From positions 930,001 to 994,000 of the forward strand of contig NZ_JACJFN010000001.1 in assembly GCF_014164785.1 (NCBI RefSeq): a stretch of 64,000 bases of DNA. Reading direction: 5' to 3'. A model generated the notes under the pieces. The model ran no database searches and was not told the origin of the DNA. It saw only the letters and a list, made by a program, of their open reading frames with translations. The position numbers and the translations under genes were made by a program. The stretch is from Aquipseudomonas guryensis (GTDB lineage: Bacteria > Pseudomonadota > Gammaproteobacteria > Pseudomonadales > Pseudomonadaceae). Below, in pieces: positions 34,560 through 45,779 of this stretch. Position 1 is the first letter of the stretch. Each line of letters begins with the position of its first letter.

Positions 34560-35483
34560 TCAGCGATTCAGCGGTGAAAACACCGACCCGCCGATCCGCT
34601 CGCTAAGCAGCTCCAGCGCCGCCATGCCAGCCAGCGAGTTGCCGGCCGGGTTCAGTTCCGGCGACCACACACACACGCTGAAGCGCCCCGGCACCACCGC
34701 GACGATGCCGCCACCAACCCCGCTCTTGCCCGGCAGGCCGACGCGGTAGGCGAAGTTGCCGGCCTCGTCGTACAAGCCGCTGGTGGCCATGATCGCGTTG
34801 ACCTGCTGGGTCTGCCGCGGCGTCAGCAGTTGTTCGCCGCTGTGTGTGCACAACCCCTGGTTGGCCAGGAAACCGCAGGCGCGCGCCAGGTCGACACAGT
34901 TCATCGCCAGCGCGCAGTGGTGGAAATAGCTGCGCAGCACCGTCTCGACATCGTTGTGGAAATTGCCGAAGGCCTGCATCAGGTAGGCCGCCGCGGCGTT
35001 GCGCGCGCGGTGCTGGTACTCCGACTCGGCCACCTTCATGTCCGCCACCACATGGGCATTGCCGGACAGGCGGCGGGCGAAGTCGCGCATCGACAGTGCC
35101 GGGGCGGCGAAGCGCGACTGGTTGATATCGCAGATCACCAAAGCGCCGGCATTGATGAACGGGTTGCGCGGCCGGCCGCGCTCGAACTCCAGCTGTACCA
35201 GGGAATTGAACGGCTGGCCGGAGGGCTCGTGGCCGAGGCGCTGCCAGATGTCCTCACCGGAATGCTGGATCGCCTGGACCAGGCTGAACACCTTGGAAAT
35301 GCTCTGGATGGAGAACGCCGTGGTGGCGTCACCGGCGGTGTGCAGGCTGCCATCGACGCCATACACGGCGATGCCCAGCTGGTTGGCCGGCACCTCGGCC
35401 AGCGCCGGAATGTAGTCGGCGACCTGGCCCTGGCCGAGCAGCGGTCGTACCTGATCCAGAATCTCGTTCAACAACGCCTGCAT
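34560..35483 (-). CDS. glsB: glutaminase
   Basis: Serine-dependent glutaminase converting L-glutamine to glutamate and ammonia. The beta-lactamase-like SxxK motif is in [12 protein letters not shown], and the family blocks [29 protein letters not shown] and [18 protein letters not shown] are complete. 307 residues from the ATG at 35483 ([16 protein letters not shown]), the normal length; the longer open frame upstream has no homology. The enzyme is cytoplasmic. With ansA it deamidates the amides whose acid products AatJQMP imports. Confidence 0.95.
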
Positions 35484-39418: not shown

Positions 39419-39806
39419 GACGATTTCCTTGCTGAACATACGGGCACAAGCATGGAACAAGACGCGACCTTATGCCGAAACGCCACACCCATGCCCGGGT
39501 AAAAACACAACGTCAGCCGGCAATAACAGATCGAATGAATACTGGGCAGCGGAAAAACTGTACCTGCATGAATCTATCGCAAGGCCCATCATCGACAGAT
39601 AAAAGTCCTGTATTAAGGCAGCGCCCCAGATTTTTCACTTATGACCAGTACAGTTGCGTACACAGGACCGGAACAGTTACCAAGCCGACTAACGAATAGC
39701 CCTGCAATTTAATCCAGCTGTGCCTACAAAATCGACCATTTAGTCAGGAAAATACTTACCAGACGAACACACTCTCACCCCGCCACAAGCGGAAGGAAGC
39801 ACCACC
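39419..39806. other. AT-rich intergenic region between ltaE and the DUF1127 gene
   Basis: A 388-bp gene-free region, clearly richer in A+T than its surroundings. It contains inverted 8-mers AACTGTAC (39556-39563) and GTACAGTT (39648-39655) and a related GGAACAGTTACC, which may be operator half-sites for one of the divergent genes. No small ORF with a ribosome-binding site stands out. Confidence 0.5.
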
Positions 39807-40022
39807 ATGGAACGTACCCTCAGTTCCGACTCGCTCTTTCAAGACAGCTCCTCGACTGTACGTGGCAACCTGCCGCTGCAGATCATTGCCACGCTGCTGC
39901 TGTGGAAACGCCGCATCATCAGCCGCCACCAGCTGGCCCGCCTGGATGAACGCCTGCTGGCCGACGCCGGCATCAGCCTGTATGAGCGCCAGGCCGAGAT
40001 CAGCAAGCCATTCTGGCGCTGA
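39807..40022 (+). CDS. DUF1127 domain small protein
   Basis: 71 residues ending in the DUF1127 (YjiS-like) motif: LARLDERLLADAGISLYERQAEISKPFW. Such Arg-rich small proteins occur in many copies in proteobacteria, and some members are linked to RNA turnover or phosphate and arginine metabolism; the role here is unknown. GGAAGGAAG lies upstream of the ATG. A strong terminator follows. Confidence 0.88.
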   Translation: MERTLSSDSLFQDSSSTVRGNLPLQIIATLLLWKRRIISRHQLARLDERLLADAGISLYERQAEISKPFWR

Positions 40023-40040
40023 GTCTGCCCGCTACGAACA

Positions 40041-40065
40041 AAGGGGAGCCTAGGCTCCCCTTTTT
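40041..40065. terminator. bidirectional terminator between the DUF1127 and sbtB-like genes
   Basis: AAGGGGAGCC-TA-GGCTCCCCTTTTT. The hairpin has a T-run on the plus strand and CCCCTTTG on the minus strand, and sits between two convergent genes. Confidence 0.85.
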
Positions 40066-40096
40066 CTTGCTCATGCGAATTGCCCTGCAACGGCTG

Positions 40097-40399
40097 CTAG
40101 AACTTCTCCGGGCGCAGCACCTGCACATCGGACAGATAGCAGACCATCGCGTAGTTGGCGTAATAGCGCTGCTGCAGGTGCTCGGCGATGCGCTCGGCCA
40201 GCTCGCGCGCACAGATCACCTCCAGGCGGATGTTGCCTTCGGTGTCCCAACCGGCGCTGCGCACACCGCGGCCGCCACGGCCACGCGCATCAGAAATGGT
40301 CCAGCCCGGCGCGCCGAGCGTTTCCAGGTCGGCCAGCAACTTCTTCTCCAGCGCCGCTTCGCCGATCACGGTGAGCAGGGTGCGAGTATGTACGTTCAT
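40097..40399 (-). CDS. PII-like signalling protein, SbtB-like
   Basis: 100-residue PII-superfamily protein. The ferredoxin-like alternation (RTLLTVIGEAALEKKLLADLETLGAPGWTISDARGRGGRG, then IRLEVICARELAERIAEHLQQRYYANYAMVCYLSDVQVLR) follows the SbtB pattern, with a T-loop equivalent around GRGGRGVRSAGWDTEG. The ATG lies one base past the stop of the SbtA-like permease gene, so the two are tightly coupled. In cyanobacteria SbtB binds adenine nucleotides and gates SbtA; the same role here is inference. Confidence 0.75.
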   Translation of the reverse strand: MNVHTRTLLTVIGEAALEKKLLADLETLGAPGWTISDARGRGGRGVRSAGWDTEGNIRLEVICARELAERIAEHLQQRYYANYAMVCYLSDVQVLRPEKF

Positions 40400-40400
40400 T

Positions 40401-41336
40401 TCAAAGCCCCCAGGCGATCAACTGTTCGGCCAGCGCCAGATAGAGCGGTATGCCGACCAGGATATTGAACGGGAAGGTAATGCCCAGCGAAGCCGTCAGT
40501 GACAGCGAGGGATTGGCCTCGGGCAGTGCCAGACGCAGAGCGGCCGGCACGGCGATATAGGACGCCGAGGCGGCCAGGGTGGCGAGCATCGCCGTGCCGC
40601 CCAGGCTCAGGTCCATGCCCCGCGCCAGCAAGGCGCCAATCAGCGCGCCGAGCAACGGCATGAGCAGGGCGAAGGTCGCCAGGCGCAGGCCGAACTGCTT
40701 CAGCGCACCCAGCTGGCCGGATGCGATCAGGCCCATCTCCAGCAGGAAGAACGCCAGCACTGGCTTGAACATGCTGGTGTACAGGGGCTCCAGCGGCTTG
40801 ATCGCTTCTTTGCCGGCGATGGCACCGATCACCAGGCCGCCGAGCAGCAGCATGATGCTCTTGCCGAGGAAGATCTCGCGGCCCAGCTCTCTCCAGTCGG
40901 TGCCGCGGCTAACGCCCTTGGCTAGCACGATGCCGACCAGAATCGCCGGAATCTCCAGGATCGCCACGAACAGCGGCATGTAGCTCTCGAAGTAGATCTC
41001 GCGCGACACCAGATAAGCCACCACCACGGCGAAGGTACCCGCGCTCACCGAACCATAATGCGCCGCCACCGCCGCCGCGTTGACCCGGTCGAAGCGCAGC
41101 CCGCGCAACAGGACGAAGGCCAGCAACGGCAAGCCGACACCCAGCCCCAGTACCAGCCCAGCCTGGCCCAACAGCTGCAGGCTGGCCTGTTCGGCCAACT
41201 CCACGCCGCCATGCAGACCAATGGCCAGGAGCAGGATGATCGACAGCGTCTCGTACAACGCCGCCGGTAACTTCAGCTCACTCTTCAAAAGCCCGGCGAC
41301 CAGGCCGAAGACGAAGAACAGCACCACCGGATCCAC
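40401..41336 (-). CDS. SbtA-family sodium-dependent bicarbonate permease
   Basis: Polytopic membrane protein of the SbtA (DUF897) family. About ten helices, with internal repeats typical of the fold; HGGVELAEQ and AHYGSVSAGTFAVVVAYL are family-type blocks. GTG at 41336 is chosen because AAAGGAGG lies exactly 6 bases upstream; the TTG at 41360 would place that Shine-Dalgarno inside the gene. 311 residues. It lies directly downstream of pyruvate carboxylase and upstream of a PII-like gene. Cyanobacterial SbtA imports bicarbonate with Na+; the substrate here is inferred from family and neighbours. Confidence 0.82.
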   Translation of the reverse strand: MDPVVLFFVFGLVAGLLKSELKLPAALYETLSIILLLAIGLHGGVELAEQASLQLLGQAGLVLGLGVGLPLLAFVLLRGLRFDRVNAAAVAAHYGSVSAGTFAVVVAYLVSREIYFESYMPLFVAILEIPAILVGIVLAKGVSRGTDWRELGREIFLGKSIMLLLGGLVIGAIAGKEAIKPLEPLYTSMFKPVLAFFLLEMGLIASGQLGALKQFGLRLATFALLMPLLGALIGALLARGMDLSLGGTAMLATLAASASYIAVPAALRLALPEANPSLSLTASLGITFPFNILVGIPLYLALAEQLIAWGL

Positions 41337-41356
41337 CTCACACCTCCTTTCTGCAG

Positions 41357-41383
41357 ACAAAAAAAGGGGCGCTTACGCGCCCC
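41357..41383 (-). terminator. intrinsic terminator between oadA and the sbtA-like gene
   Basis: On the minus strand GGGGCGC-GTAA-GCGCCCC is followed by seven T residues. The T-tract ends about 6 bp before the sbtA Shine-Dalgarno, so sbtAB transcripts must come from readthrough or from a promoter overlapping the hairpin. Confidence 0.9.
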
Positions 41384-41389
41384 TGGGAC

Positions 41390-43213
41390 TCAACCTTCGA
41401 TCTCTACCAACACTTCACCGGGGGTAACCCGATCCCCCTTGGCCACGTGGATGGTTTTCACCGTACCGGCGATCGGCGCCTGCACTTCGGTTTCCATCTT
41501 CATCGCCTCGGTAATCAGTACGGCCTGGCCGGCTTTCACCTGATCGCCCTCTTTAACCAGCACGTCGACGATATTGCCCGGCATGGTGGTGGACACATCG
41601 CCCGGCGCGCTGGCCTGCTTGCGCTTGCTGCCGCCACCGCCGACGAAGTCGTTGAGCGGCTCGAACACCACCTCTTCGGGCATGCCGTCGATCGACAGGT
41701 AGAAGTGGCGCTTGCCGTCGCCCTTCACGCCGACGCCGGTGATGTCGACGCGGTAGCTCTCGCCGTGCACATCGATGATGAACTCGGTCGGCACGCCTTC
41801 GCCGCCCACCGCCGCGACACCGCCGGCTTCCGGAATCGGCAGCAGCACTTCCGGGGTCAGGGTGCCGGCAGCGCGCTCCTCGAGGAACTTGCGGCCGATG
41901 TCGGGGAACATCGCATAGGTCAGCACGTCTTCCTCGGACTTGGCCAGGGCGCCGACTTCGGCACGCAGCTTGGCCAGCTCCGGCGGGATCAGGTCGGCGG
42001 GGCGCACATCAATGACGTCCTCGCTGCCGATCGCCTGCTTGCGCAGTTGCTCGTTGATCTTGCCCGGCGCCAGGCCGTAACGCCCCTGCAGGTAGAGCTT
42101 CACCTCGTTGGTGATGGTCTTGTAGCGCTCGCCGGCCAGCACGTTGAACACCGCCTGGGTGCCGACGATCTGCGAGGTCGGCGTCACCAGCGGCGGGAAG
42201 CCGAGGTCTTCGCGCACTCGCGGGATCTCGGCGAACACTTCGTTGATGCGGTTAAGTGCGCCCTGTTCTTTCAGCTGGTTGGCCAAGTTGGACATCATCC
42301 CGCCCGGCACCTGGTTGACCTGCACGCGGGTGTCCACGGCGGTGAACTCGCTTTCGAACTGGTGGTACTTCTTGCGCACGGCGTGGAAGTACATGCCGAT
42401 CTCCTGGATCAGCGACAGGTCCAGACCGGTATCGTATTCGCTGCCACGCAGGGCGGCGACCATCGACTCGGTGCCCGGATGGCTGGTGCCCCAGGCGAAG
42501 CTGGAGATGGCGGTGTCGATATGGTCGGCACCGGCTTCAATCGCCTTGAGCTGACACATCGAGCCCATGCCGGCGGTGTCGTGGCTATGGATGAATACCG
42601 GCAGGTCGACTGCGGCCTTCAGCGCCTTGACCAGCTCGGCGGTAGCGAACGGGGTGAGCAGCCCGGCCATGTCCTTGATCGCGATGGAGTCGATGCCCAT
42701 CGCCTGCATGGCCTTGGCCTGGGCGACGAACGCCTCGACCGTGTGCACCGGGCTGGTGGTGTAGCTGATGGTGCCCTGGGCGTGCTTGCCGGCGGCCTTC
42801 ACCGCCTCAATGGAGACGCGCAGGTTACGCACGTCGTTCATCGCGTCGAAGATGCGGAACACGTCGATGCCGTTGACCGCGGCCTTGGCCACGAAGGCCC
42901 GCACCACGTCGTCGCTGTAGTGGCGGTAACCGAGCAGGTTCTGCCCGCGCAGGAGCATCTGCAGGCGGGTGTTGGGCAGCGCGGCCTTGAGCTTGCGCAG
43001 GCGCTCCCAGGGGTCTTCCTTGAGGAAGCGCACGCAGGCGTCGAAGGTCGCGCCGCCCCAGACTTCCAGCGACCAGTAGCCGACTTTGTCGAGCTTGTCG
43101 CAGATCGGCAGCATGTCTTCGGTGCGCATCCGGGTGGCGATGATCGACTGGTGGGCGTCGCGCAGGATGGTGTCGGTAACGGTGATCTTTTTAGTAACTG
43201 GGGTCTTAGCCAT
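41390..43213 (-). CDS. oadA: pyruvate carboxylase subunit B (OadA-like carboxyltransferase/biotin carrier)
   Basis: Carboxyltransferase of the two-subunit pyruvate carboxylase that makes oxaloacetate. The N-terminal carboxyltransferase barrel begins TDTILRDAHQSIIATRMRTEDM and contains EVWGGATFDACVRFL, the conserved Lys region (IAIKDMAGLL) and HSHDTAGMG metal ligands. A conserved C-terminal linker precedes the biotinyl domain with the EAMKME biotin site. 607 residues, 11 bp downstream of pycA. The name oadA is by homology; with a soluble PycA and no oadB/oadG nearby, anaplerotic carboxylation rather than Na+-pumping decarboxylation is likely. Confidence 0.95.
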   Translation of the reverse strand: MAKTPVTKKITVTDTILRDAHQSIIATRMRTEDMLPICDKLDKVGYWSLEVWGGATFDACVRFLKEDPWERLRKLKAALPNTRLQMLLRGQNLLGYRHYSDDVVRAFVAKAAVNGIDVFRIFDAMNDVRNLRVSIEAVKAAGKHAQGTISYTTSPVHTVEAFVAQAKAMQAMGIDSIAIKDMAGLLTPFATAELVKALKAAVDLPVFIHSHDTAGMGSMCQLKAIEAGADHIDTAISSFAWGTSHPGTESMVAALRGSEYDTGLDLSLIQEIGMYFHAVRKKYHQFESEFTAVDTRVQVNQVPGGMMSNLANQLKEQGALNRINEVFAEIPRVREDLGFPPLVTPTSQIVGTQAVFNVLAGERYKTITNEVKLYLQGRYGLAPGKINEQLRKQAIGSEDVIDVRPADLIPPELAKLRAEVGALAKSEEDVLTYAMFPDIGRKFLEERAAGTLTPEVLLPIPEAGGVAAVGGEGVPTEFIIDVHGESYRVDITGVGVKGDGKRHFYLSIDGMPEEVVFEPLNDFVGGGGSKRKQASAPGDVSTTMPGNIVDVLVKEGDQVKAGQAVLITEAMKMETEVQAPIAGTVKTIHVAKGDRVTPGEVLVEIEG

Positions 43214-43224
43214 GGTTCAGTTCC

Positions 43225-44640
43225 TCACAGGCCGGCGTGGGCGGCGATGGCGGCAGCGATGGCCAGGGCCAGCTCGTCCGGTTTGCGCTTGATCGAATAG
43301 TTGGTCAGTTCCGGGTGAGCTTCGACGAAACTGGTGTTGAACTGGCCGCTGCGGAACTCAGGGTTGCGCAGGATTTCCTGGTAGTAGGCGGCGGTGGTCT
43401 TCACCCCCTGCAGGCGCATGTCGTCCAGCGCGCGCAGGCCGCGGTCCATTGCCTCTTCCCAGGTCAGTGCCCAGACGATCAGCTTGAGGCACATGGAGTC
43501 GTAGTACGGCGGAATGGTGTAGCCGGTGTAGATCGCCGTATCGGTGCGCACGCCAGGGCCGCCGGGGGCGTAGTAGCGGGTGATCTTGCCGAATGAGGGC
43601 AGGAAGTTGTTCTTCGGGTCTTCGGCGTTGATGCGGAACTGCAGGGCGAAGCCGCGGTACTGGATGTCTTCCTGCTTGATCGACAGCTCCAGGCCCGAGG
43701 CGATGCGGATCTGCTCGCGGACGATGTCGATGCCGGTGATTTCCTCGGTGATGGTGTGTTCCACCTGCACCCGGGTGTTCATCTCCATGAAGTACACCTC
43801 GCCCTCGGCGAGCAGGAACTCCACGGTACCGGCGTTCTCGTAGCCCACTGCCTTGGCCGCGCGCACGGCCAGGTCGCCGATATAGGCGCGCTGCTCGGGG
43901 GTCAGCTGCGGGCTGGGGGCGATCTCGATCAGCTTCTGGTTGCGCCGCTGGATCGAGCAGTCGCGTTCGTACAGGTGCACAGTGTTGCCGAAGCTGTCGG
44001 CGAGGATCTGCGCCTCGATGTGCTTGGGGTTAACGATGCATTTTTCCAGAAAGACTTCGGCGCGGCCGAACGCCTTGGTCGCCTCGGAGATCACCCGTGG
44101 GTAGGCCTGTTCCAGCTCCTCACGGCTGTTGCAGCGACGGATACCACGCCCGCCGCCACCGTTGGTGGCCTTGAGCATCACCGGGTAGCCAATGCGGTCG
44201 CCTTCGCGCAGGGCTTCGTCGATATCCGCCACGTTGCCCTCGGTACCGGGCGTGCAGGGCACGCCGGCGGCGATCATGCTGCGCCGTGCCTCGGTCTTGT
44301 CACCCATGCGGCGGATCACTTCGGCAGACGGACCGATGAACTTGATCCCGCGTTCGGCACAGATATCGGCCAGCTCGGCGTTCTCGGAAAGGAAGCCGTA
44401 GCCCGGATGGAGGGCGTCGCAGCCGGTCTCCACCGCCAGGTTCACCAGCTTGCGCGGGTTGAGGTAGCCGGCCAGCGGGTCGTCACCGATGCTGTGGGCT
44501 TCGTCGGCGCGCTTGACGTGCAGCGCCATGCGATCCGCTTCGGAGTAGACCGCCACCGAGCGGATGCCCATCTCGGCGCAGGCGCGCACGATACGGACGG
44601 CAATCTCGCCACGGTTGGCTATGAGGATTTTCTTGATCAC
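43225..44640 (-). CDS. pycA: pyruvate carboxylase subunit A (biotin carboxylase)
   Basis: ATP-grasp biotin carboxylase that carboxylates the biotin on subunit B using bicarbonate and ATP. It starts MIKKILIANRGEIAVRIVRACAE; the Gly-rich ATP loop GGGGRGIRRC, the EKCIVNPKHIEAQIL block and EMNTRVQVEHTITEEITGID are complete. 471 residues. It is the first gene of the pycA-oadA operon and divergent from pycR across 188 bp. Confidence 0.96.
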   Translation of the reverse strand: MIKKILIANRGEIAVRIVRACAEMGIRSVAVYSEADRMALHVKRADEAHSIGDDPLAGYLNPRKLVNLAVETGCDALHPGYGFLSENAELADICAERGIKFIGPSAEVIRRMGDKTEARRSMIAAGVPCTPGTEGNVADIDEALREGDRIGYPVMLKATNGGGGRGIRRCNSREELEQAYPRVISEATKAFGRAEVFLEKCIVNPKHIEAQILADSFGNTVHLYERDCSIQRRNQKLIEIAPSPQLTPEQRAYIGDLAVRAAKAVGYENAGTVEFLLAEGEVYFMEMNTRVQVEHTITEEITGIDIVREQIRIASGLELSIKQEDIQYRGFALQFRINAEDPKNNFLPSFGKITRYYAPGGPGVRTDTAIYTGYTIPPYYDSMCLKLIVWALTWEEAMDRGLRALDDMRLQGVKTTAAYYQEILRNPEFRSGQFNTSFVEAHPELTNYSIKRKPDELALAIAAAIAAHAGL

Positions 44641-44744
44641 GAGCCTGGTTCCTCGATCACGTGAGCAAACGGCCGCTGCAGAGCGGTCGACGGGTGACCG
44701 TACGCCTTGTAGCGGTCTTGGCTTTACCCTACGCCGGCACGCCG

Positions 44745-44800
44745 ATTAACCAAAATCAATATTTGTTGGGTTAGTCATTAGCAAAGACTTATAGTTGAAC
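44745..44800. promoter_or_regulatory. AT-rich divergent promoter/operator region of pycA and pycR
   Basis: The stretch between the divergent genes is unusually AT-rich and contains partly symmetric TTAACC...GGGTTA arms around AAAATCAATATTTGTT. This is the expected place for PycR binding; the exact site cannot be set from sequence alone. Confidence 0.4.
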
Positions 44801-44828
44801 GCATCAACCTTTCTGGCGAACCACAGCA

Positions 44829-45779
44829 ATGCGTAAGTCGCTGATGCGCATGACATTTCGACAGCTGCAGATTTTTCGGGCAGTTTGCGAAAGCCGTTCC
44901 TACAGCCGCGCAGCCGAGGAAATGGCCCTCACCCAGCCGGCCGTGAGCCTGCAGATTCGCCAACTGGAAGAGCTGATCGACCAGCCGCTGTTCGACTACG
45001 TGGCCAAAAAGCTCTACCTGACGCCGGCCGCCGAGGCGCTGCTGAAAGCCAGCGAAGACGTCTTCGGCCGCCTGGAGAGCCTCGACATGCAGCTCTCCGA
45101 CCTGCAGGGCTCGCTGCAGGGCCAGCTCAGCCTGGCGGTCGAGTCCAGCGCCAAGTACCTGGTGCCGCACCTGTTCGCCGCCTTCCGCGCCCAGCACCCG
45201 GAAGTCAGCCTGCAGCTGGTGGTGGTCAACCATGCCATGGCGGTCAGACGCCTGTCGGCGAGCCGCGACGACCTGCTGATCATGTCGCAGGTACCCAGCG
45301 AGCTGGCGCTGGATTTCTTTCCGTTCTTCAACAACCCGATCGTTGCCGTGGCGCCGCCGACGCATCCCCTGTGTTCAGTGGAGCGCCTGCGCCTGAGCGA
45401 TCTCAGTGAGTTCCCCCTGCTGGTGCGCGAGCCTGGCTCGGGCACGCGCAAAGCCTGCGAGGAATACTGCCACCAGAAGCGCGCGCACTTCGCCCAGTTG
45501 ATCGAGATCGGCTCCAGCGAATCCCAGGTGGAAGCGGTGATCGCCGGCCTCGGCCTGGCCCTGCTGCCGCGTCACGCGGTGCGCCTGGAACTGGCCGCCG
45601 GCCTATTGCGCGAGCTGCCAGTGGAAGAATTGCCGCTGCTGCGCAGCTGGTGTGTGGTGCACAACCGTGGCAAACGCCTGTCACCGGTGGCGCAGGCGTT
45701 TCTCGACTTTATCCGCGTCGAGCGCCTGCAGATCAGCGCCCTGGGCGAGCGCTTCGCGGCTGCGCCGACTGCAGCGTAG
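44829..45779 (+). CDS. pycR: LysR-type regulator PycR
   Basis: LysR regulator divergent from the pyruvate carboxylase genes. Winged HTH at the N-terminus (TFRQLQIFRAVCESRSYSRAAEEMALTQPAVSLQIRQLEELI) and a LysR substrate domain. 316 residues from the ATG at 44829; an internal ATG at 44844 (MTFRQLQIF) is a reasonable alternative. The position matches PA5437 (pycR) in PAO1. Its 3' end overlaps the convergent PA3496-family gene by 47 bp. Confidence 0.9.
   Translation: MRKSLMRMTFRQLQIFRAVCESRSYSRAAEEMALTQPAVSLQIRQLEELIDQPLFDYVAKKLYLTPAAEALLKASEDVFGRLESLDMQLSDLQGSLQGQLSLAVESSAKYLVPHLFAAFRAQHPEVSLQLVVVNHAMAVRRLSASRDDLLIMSQVPSELALDFFPFFNNPIVAVAPPTHPLCSVERLRLSDLSEFPLLVREPGSGTRKACEEYCHQKRAHFAQLIEIGSSESQVEAVIAGLGLALLPRHAVRLELAAGLLRELPVEELPLLRSWCVVHNRGKRLSPVAQAFLDFIRVERLQISALGERFAAAPTAA

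Follow-up and report, generated by a model that had tools for sequence, protein, structure and literature searches.

The permease SbtA and its PII-like partner SbtB have been studied mostly in photosynthetic and chemosynthetic carbon concentration. In cyanobacteria the pair is exemplified by Synechocystis slr1512-slr1513 (structures 7CYE, 7CYF, 7EGL and 8ZOR), and in autotrophic proteobacteria by SbtA-family proteins of Thiomicrospira pelophila, which are reported to rescue carbonic-anhydrase-less E. coli and raise internal inorganic carbon (PMC12628692). Many heterotrophic bacteria are also said to possess SbtA-like proteins (PMC10117731). In a heterotroph, MpsAB of Staphylococcus aureus has been proposed to provide pyruvate carboxylase and further carboxylases with bicarbonate; it belongs, however, to other families (PF00361, PF10070), and the accessible part of the paper claims no linkage to pyc genes (PMC6689103). 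A significant rise of succinate in E. coli was seen only with joint expression of a carboxylating enzyme and a bicarbonate transporter (PMC4667291). The two-subunit pyruvate carboxylase of P. aeruginosa is encoded by a pair of subunit genes with a neighbouring LysR-type regulator, PycR, and sbtAB is not mentioned in the accessible part of that work (PMC5059739). Here, we describe a locus of Aquipseudomonas guryensis on a stretch of 64,000 nt that was analysed as a whole (the window; contig NZ_JACJFN010000001.1, positions 930,001 to 994,000; all coordinates refer to the window), in which pycA and oadA, encoding a predicted two-subunit pyruvate carboxylase, are followed by the permease gene sbtA and an sbtB-like gene. 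Taking the evidence together, we lean towards the view that, in this likely non-photosynthetic bacterium, SbtAB raises the cell's bicarbonate for the predicted pyruvate carboxylase, an enzyme of central metabolism, encoded directly upstream.

The four genes lie head to tail on the minus strand, as the initial annotation had placed them, with 11 nt between pycA and oadA and 53 nt between oadA and sbtA (Table 1). Separate genes for a biotin carboxylase and for a carboxyltransferase with biotin carboxyl carrier domain adjoin each other, which corresponds to a two-subunit pyruvate carboxylase, an activity predicted from sequence. The oadA product matches pyruvate carboxylase subunit B (NF006761) and also scores above the threshold for oxaloacetate decarboxylase alpha (TIGR01108). 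The genome (4.29 Mb in 7 contigs) contains a single match to the SbtA family.

With the cyanobacterial system the locus shares the permease fold and the adjacent PII-like partner. SbtA covers positions 1-307 of 308 of the family PF05982 (Sbt_1) with 367 bits at a cut-off of 27, and its AlphaFold2 model (predicted local distance difference test, pLDDT, 92.5) retrieved SbtA chains as the top five Foldseek hits, with template modelling (TM) scores of 0.78-0.88 (0.88 to 8zor), followed by bile acid symporters. Both the assignment to the SbtA family and the position of the PII-like gene one base past the permease stop, as proposed initially, were confirmed; between the stop of sbtA and the ATG of sbtB there is the single base 40400. 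The PII fold encoded beside sbtA (P-II, 81.5 bits) identifies the partner as SbtB-like, and its model (pLDDT 86, residues 45-51 below 50) resembles Thermus TTHA0516 (TM 0.85) and 7egk_B, the SbtB of the SbtA-SbtB complex (TM 0.83). In contrast to the aligned cyanobacterial SbtB, the T-loop is shorter and the C-terminal CGPxGC redox loop, which is present in some SbtB only, is missing; this motif was likewise searched for, without a match, in 121 SbtB-like sequences of the loci L047-L186. Judged by its family, the protein would be expected to bind nucleotides.

The survey of SbtA homologues for linkage to pycA and oadA, which had been suggested together with the initial annotation, revealed a conserved neighbourhood in the Pseudomonadaceae. 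It comprised 149 genomes of the genus, 369 of the class, 398 of the phylum and a named scan with the best 80 of 470 loci; these samples overlap in part (e.g. L102, L107) and are not independent. Within the genus, 14 genomes match PF05982, 13 of them over the cut-off: 12 hold an orthologue of sbtA (the window's genome and 11 others, with 86-92% identity) and one another SbtA. In 11 of the 12 orthologue-bearing genomes oadA lies within 1.5 kb of sbtA, in the order pycA-oadA-sbtA-sbtB. The named scan contains 32 loci with SbtA of at least 75% identity among its best 80 of 470, and pycA-oadA stands upstream in 28 of the 31 that are assessable; some of these 28 are bins, and the remaining locus, L119, stops at a contig end, L122 being from the same strain. 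In the phylum sample all three Pseudomonadaceae loci are linked. The same gene order thus occurs in Pseudomonas, Stutzerimonas and Halopseudomonas, and a chance neighbourhood was rejected for this reason. Moreover, the upstream oadA is constant, whereas the gene past sbtB varies (carbonic anhydrase, glutaminase, oligopeptidase, DUF1127 and others).

Beyond this family the linkage disappears, with none among 135 more distant loci (50 class, 48 named and 37 phylum loci, which overlap in part). In the class sample, where 54 of 369 genomes are over the PF05982 cut-off, no match to PycA or OadA was found within about 6 kb of sbtA in 50 loci (of 57 places outside the window's genome), and none of the other 48 of the best 80 of 470 named loci is linked to pycA or oadA. 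The phylum sample (55 of 398 genomes over the cut-off; 40 loci of 64 places outside the window's genome) includes 37 loci from other families; none of these has oadA within 3 kb of sbtA, a biotin carboxylase homologue (47% and 51%) occurs at up to 5 kb in two, and in two OadA is matched weakly and in part at a distance of about 5 kb. The unlinked named loci with SbtA of at least 75% identity are L133, L135 (Pseudohongiella) and the bin L138, whose SbtA clusters with Halopseudomonas. In the twelfth carrier of the genus sample (G069), sbtAB is located away from oadA, beside a reading frame that starts like the oligopeptidase gene found after sbtAB in the linked locus L117.

A further point concerns the carboxylase that could be served. 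RuBisCO (PF00016) had no match in 39 Pseudomonas genomes, the window's included, and was therefore rejected as the client of SbtAB; this also sets the genome apart from the cyanobacterial system. By comparison, PF00016 is matched in 39 of the 53 class-sample genomes outside Pseudomonas that have SbtA, a few of these matches being weak and probably RuBisCO-like, versus 5 of 17 SbtA-negative genomes searched alongside. Carbonic anhydrase genes were searched with one beta-type enzyme as query, by which other types would be missed. Of the 28 linked named loci, 11 carry such a gene at no more than 3 kb from sbtA. In the P. oleovorans group it stands behind sbtB in convergent orientation; in the Stutzerimonas-type loci it is co-directional and mostly past a glutaminase gene, and some copies are further off. 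The same distance holds for 11 of the 37 phylum loci outside the Pseudomonadaceae, on the same strand in 10. In the window no beta carbonic anhydrase was found within 3 kb of sbtA, and two are encoded elsewhere in its genome. The glutaminase gene (e.g. L120:9286-10215) stands directly behind sbtB, ahead of the carbonic anhydrase gene, in several Stutzerimonas-type loci; in the window a glutaminase gene is located at 34560-35468 on the minus strand, about 4.6 kb past sbtB.

Relatives without the pair were represented by 40 loci lacking sbtAB behind oadA, a non-random set picked by hand from the genus sample (16 of them nearest by OadA), in which 39 are assessable for terminators, one is at a contig end and one (G052) bears another SbtA type elsewhere. 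A carbonic anhydrase gene follows oadA in 3 of these 40 loci.

Several findings weigh against a dedicated supply of pyruvate carboxylase. There is no PF05982 protein over the cut-off in 136 of the 149 genus genomes, while oadA is present in all 149, and the four other rows in the window's clade of a PycA and OadA tree all lack the pair. The linkage itself may have been inherited from one event, so that the loci would not be independent. Phosphoenolpyruvate (PEP) carboxylase and a beta carbonic anhydrase were detected in 39 of 39 genomes, hence no dependence on the pump is evident; lack of either enzyme as a reason for sbtAB was likewise rejected. Carbonic anhydrase neighbours are missing in all 50 class loci and present in 3 of 51 named loci outside the Pseudomonadaceae (Pseudohongiella-type included). 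From the four residues that contact bicarbonate in cyanobacterial SbtA (Ser114, Tyr140, Ser324 and Ser327; PMC8352866), the window's protein keeps two, Ser98 and Ser259, with Y140 replaced by V124 and S327 by A262. Finally, an intrinsic terminator, a hairpin with seven T, is predicted in the gap between oadA and sbtA, in the window as well as in 23 of 25 named Pseudomonas- and Stutzerimonas-type loci, and at up to 300 nt past oadA in 38 of the 39 assessable relatives without sbtAB there.

Considered by itself, the terminator prediction in the window is not compelling: a scan of 39700-45000 gave four sites against a mean of 3.2 in shuffled sequences, which alone is no proof, and the stretch folds with a z-score of -2.4, with 2 of 200 shuffles folding as well. 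The case for it therefore rests on its place and its recurrence. Since a terminator recurs at the same place in loci with and without sbtAB, the hairpin is likely the old terminator of pycAB with sbtAB sitting behind it. Thus the same-strand gene group of the initial annotation stands, but one simple operon is doubtful because the predicted terminator divides oadA from sbtA, and sbtAB is likely coupled to pycAB only loosely rather than being a plain part of its operon. A scan of 39700-45000 for sigma-70-like promoters found no site, not even for pycA, so this silence says little.

These observations bear on a different explanation, in which sbtAB is an independent housekeeping unit for bicarbonate or for pH and sodium that landed once behind the pycAB terminator and was inherited there, with no special tie to pyruvate carboxylase. 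The terminators in relatives without sbtAB fit this explanation, as do the variable gaps between oadA and sbtA (24 to 594 nt), the carriers G069 and L138 (a Halopseudomonas-like bin) with sbtAB away from oadA, and the occurrence of sbtA elsewhere near PycR-like LysR or carbonic anhydrase genes instead of pyc. However, an independent unit would not readily account for an upstream neighbour that almost every carrier of the family retains, given that the gene on the downstream side varies. In addition, the three Halopseudomonas-type loci, examined with the same script, have no predicted terminator (gaps of 24, 137 and 60 nt), and the window leaves hardly any room for a promoter between terminator and sbtA. 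We regard an independent unit as possible but rather doubtful.

The history of the pair was followed in the tree of PycA and OadA with 75 rows, 36 with and 39 without sbtAB behind oadA, the latter being hand-chosen and partly near relatives. Presence of sbtAB requires nine changes on this tree compared to a mean of 25 after shuffling, and one clade of 26 rows is entirely without the pair behind oadA; several losses or gains are again compatible with the independent unit. Distances of SbtA and PycAB correlate over the 36 loci (r 0.741; none of 2000 permutations as high). This correlation, together with the same place of the pair in Stutzerimonas and Halopseudomonas, suggests that sbtAB was present early and then lost repeatedly; alternatively, the pair may have been acquired by transfer into this position. 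The alignment of the window with L188, a relative without sbtAB there, runs in oadA and resumes behind sbtB through the DUF1127 gene and an aldolase gene, so the difference is the sbtAB block. Between the window and P. alcaligenes, nonsynonymous (dN) and synonymous (dS) divergence are 0.031 and 0.386 for sbtA (dN/dS about 0.08) and 0.059 and 0.377 for sbtB (about 0.16); both genes look to be under purifying selection.

Regarding the substrate, the window's SbtA does not show the contact set of the cyanobacterial type: Ser114 and Ser324 have equivalents, and Tyr140, Asp325 and Ser327 are replaced by V, Y and A. It could therefore be asked whether the permease carries another small anion, e.g. 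a monocarboxylate or oxaloacetate at the pyruvate node, with SbtB gating the flux. The two replaced contacts favour this idea, to which the reported effect of alanine substitutions at the contact sites, which lower the activity of Synechocystis SbtA to about 10-40% (PMC8352866), lends some weight. Against it stands that the same pocket is common among proteobacterial SbtAs: 49 of 50 class loci retain both serines, lack Tyr at 124 and have Ala or Val at 262 (Leu, Val or Met at 124 and Ala at 262 in 43 of 50). Many of these sbtA genes neighbour a PycR-like LysR gene, with a LysR match to PycR at no more than 3 kb in 26 of the 50 loci, and some are a few kb from RuBisCO (e.g. G167, G212). Of the loci aligned (L047-L186), one, L093, has the pattern of cyanobacterial SbtA. 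The carbonic anhydrase genes near sbtA in 11 of the 28 linked loci and in 11 of the 37 phylum loci from other families, and the import of inorganic carbon reported for SbtA-family proteins of autotrophic proteobacteria (PMC12628692), likewise speak against another anion, which we consider improbable. The likeness to autotrophic SbtA is drawn via the class-sample loci, and the neighbouring carboxylase differs, being pyruvate carboxylase here. By analogy, bicarbonate is the most likely substrate, because the pocket pattern is common to proteobacterial SbtAs and SbtA-family proteins of Thiomicrospira are reported to raise internal inorganic carbon.

If SbtAB serves the upstream carboxylase, SbtA would act as a Na+/HCO3- symporter importing bicarbonate, and SbtB would dock on SbtA and close the permease depending on the nucleotide it has bound. 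For the window, expression of sbtAB would come from read-through of the pycAB terminator, since the 22 nt from the T run to the GTG of sbtA, ribosome binding site included, leave hardly any room for a promoter; only small amounts of the pump would then be made, in dependence on carboxylase expression. Many relatives have oadA and sbtA further apart (up to 594 nt), and a separate promoter may serve sbtAB there. As pyruvate carboxylase uses bicarbonate, import would be most important where CO2 is scarce, as in alkaline, saline or well-aerated water, and other bicarbonate-using enzymes of the cell would gain too. The bicarbonate supply module proposed in the initial annotation is thereby upheld in its conserved linkage, its lack of a RuBisCO match, its SbtA-like fold, its SbtB-like partner and, for some relatives, its carbonic anhydrase neighbours; it is weakened by the terminator, the two replaced contacts, the frequent absence of the pair where pycAB stays, and the PEP carboxylase and carbonic anhydrase that are present anyway. 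Its expected novelty holds in part: among open PMC papers, which leave most subscription papers outside coverage, none was found on a gene tie between SbtAB and pyruvate carboxylase, whereas the idea that pyruvate carboxylase of a heterotroph depends on a bicarbonate concentrator has been published for MpsAB (PMC6689103). A conserved tie to pyruvate carboxylase, if true, would show a possible role of SbtA-like proteins in heterotrophs and offer a testable system in the easily grown Pseudomonas and Stutzerimonas, relevant to the engineering of carboxylation.

A wider proposal, which we put forward tentatively, is that the Pseudomonadaceae locus is the heterotrophic equivalent of a carbon-concentrating locus of autotrophs. 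Pyruvate carboxylase would stand where RuBisCO does, accompanied by a CbbR-like LysR regulator, an SbtAB pump gated by adenylates and, in many cases, a carbonic anhydrase; leakage through the pycAB terminator would set the level of the pump, as would, in some of the species, a new leader RNA with a three-way junction. The LysR gene divergent from pycA, in the position of PycR, is predicted to be CbbR-like, falling short of a CbbR assignment. The leader candidate, with the loop AUCAGCAC, is 72-97 nt long and located 70-125 nt upstream of sbtA in 10 loci, some of one species group; the four that were folded gave z-scores of -5.1 to -6.8. Its covariance model matches 8 of 149 genus genomes, once each: six between oadA and sbtA (of the 12 genomes with an sbtA orthologue) and two (G064, G113) in a shortened form past oadA without sbtAB, which reads as a loss remnant or a kept terminator. 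The window has no match to the model. In an Rfam search the window gave nothing at gathering scores and the 12 leader loci one unrelated weak match, with no family for the leader RNA. A dispersed repeat was rejected, because a pattern derived from the leader hairpin occurs once each in 6 of 8 genomes, before sbtA, and the model once each in 8 of 149. Two-sided pair changes are no more frequent than in shuffles, of which 1 in 500 reached the percentage paired and 27 in 500 the covariation score; support by covariation is weak, as the MAFFT alignment mispairs the second helix in some rows. Since the outer helix is almost a palindrome, the model also gives weaker matches on the complementary strand of its own sites.

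Table 1. Features of the pycA-oadA-sbtA-sbtB locus (window positions) and of related loci (L numbers).
Feature	Position	Strand	Evidence or remark
pycA, biotin carboxylase subunit of predicted two-subunit pyruvate carboxylase, GTG start	43225..44640	-	Pfam Biotin_carb_N/CPSase_L_D2/Biotin_carb_C; NCBIfam NF005525 986.5 bits, cut-off 768
oadA/pycB, carboxyltransferase and biotin carrier subunit	41390..43213	-	Pfam HMGL-like, PYC_OADA, Biotin_lipoyl; NCBIfam NF006761 942 bits, cut-off 402
Predicted intrinsic terminator, oadA-sbtA gap	41359..41384	-	hairpin and seven T
sbtA ribosome binding site AAAGGAGG with GTG start and first codons	41329..41350	-	
sbtA, predicted Na+-dependent bicarbonate permease, 311 aa, GTG start	40401..41336	-	PF05982 367 bits; AlphaFold2 model
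sbtB-like, PII-like protein, 100 aa	40097..40399	-	PF00543 81.5 bits; Foldseek to TTHA0516 and SbtB structures
Predicted terminator downstream of sbtB, between convergent genes	40039..40065	.	
DUF1127 gene, 71 aa, convergent with sbtB	39807-40022	+	predicted terminator region common to both
Divergent LysR-type regulator in PycR position	44829..45779	+	Pfam LysR_substrate/HTH_1; best NCBIfam CbbR 216 bits, cut-off 450
Leader RNA candidate, examples	L107:7800-7875, L108:4603-4694, L100:9030-9105		
Carbonic anhydrase-bearing phylum loci	L278, L279, L282, L283, L286, L287, L289, L290, L291, L296, L302		

For sbtA, the reading frame in the mechanical list opens at a TTG 24 nt upstream of the chosen GTG, and the DUF1127 gene is below the minimum of 80 aa of that list. 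Further SbtA types were encountered during the survey. The class-sample genome with L093 (G173:C17) encodes three SbtA proteins, one of them with the cyanobacterial-type pocket and with an SbtB-like gene in opposite orientation. A chromosomal SbtA copy (L099, G052:C1:2976317-2977223) is apparently split over two frames near its C-terminus. A second SbtAB type, with 57-61% to the window's, was found on the conjugative plasmid pSDM007 of P. hygromyciniae (L235; NZ_CP070507.1, 244756-245055), with a Tn3 transposase and short cyanophycin synthetase genes nearby, and SbtB genes similar to this type are present on three conjugative Arthrobacter plasmids.

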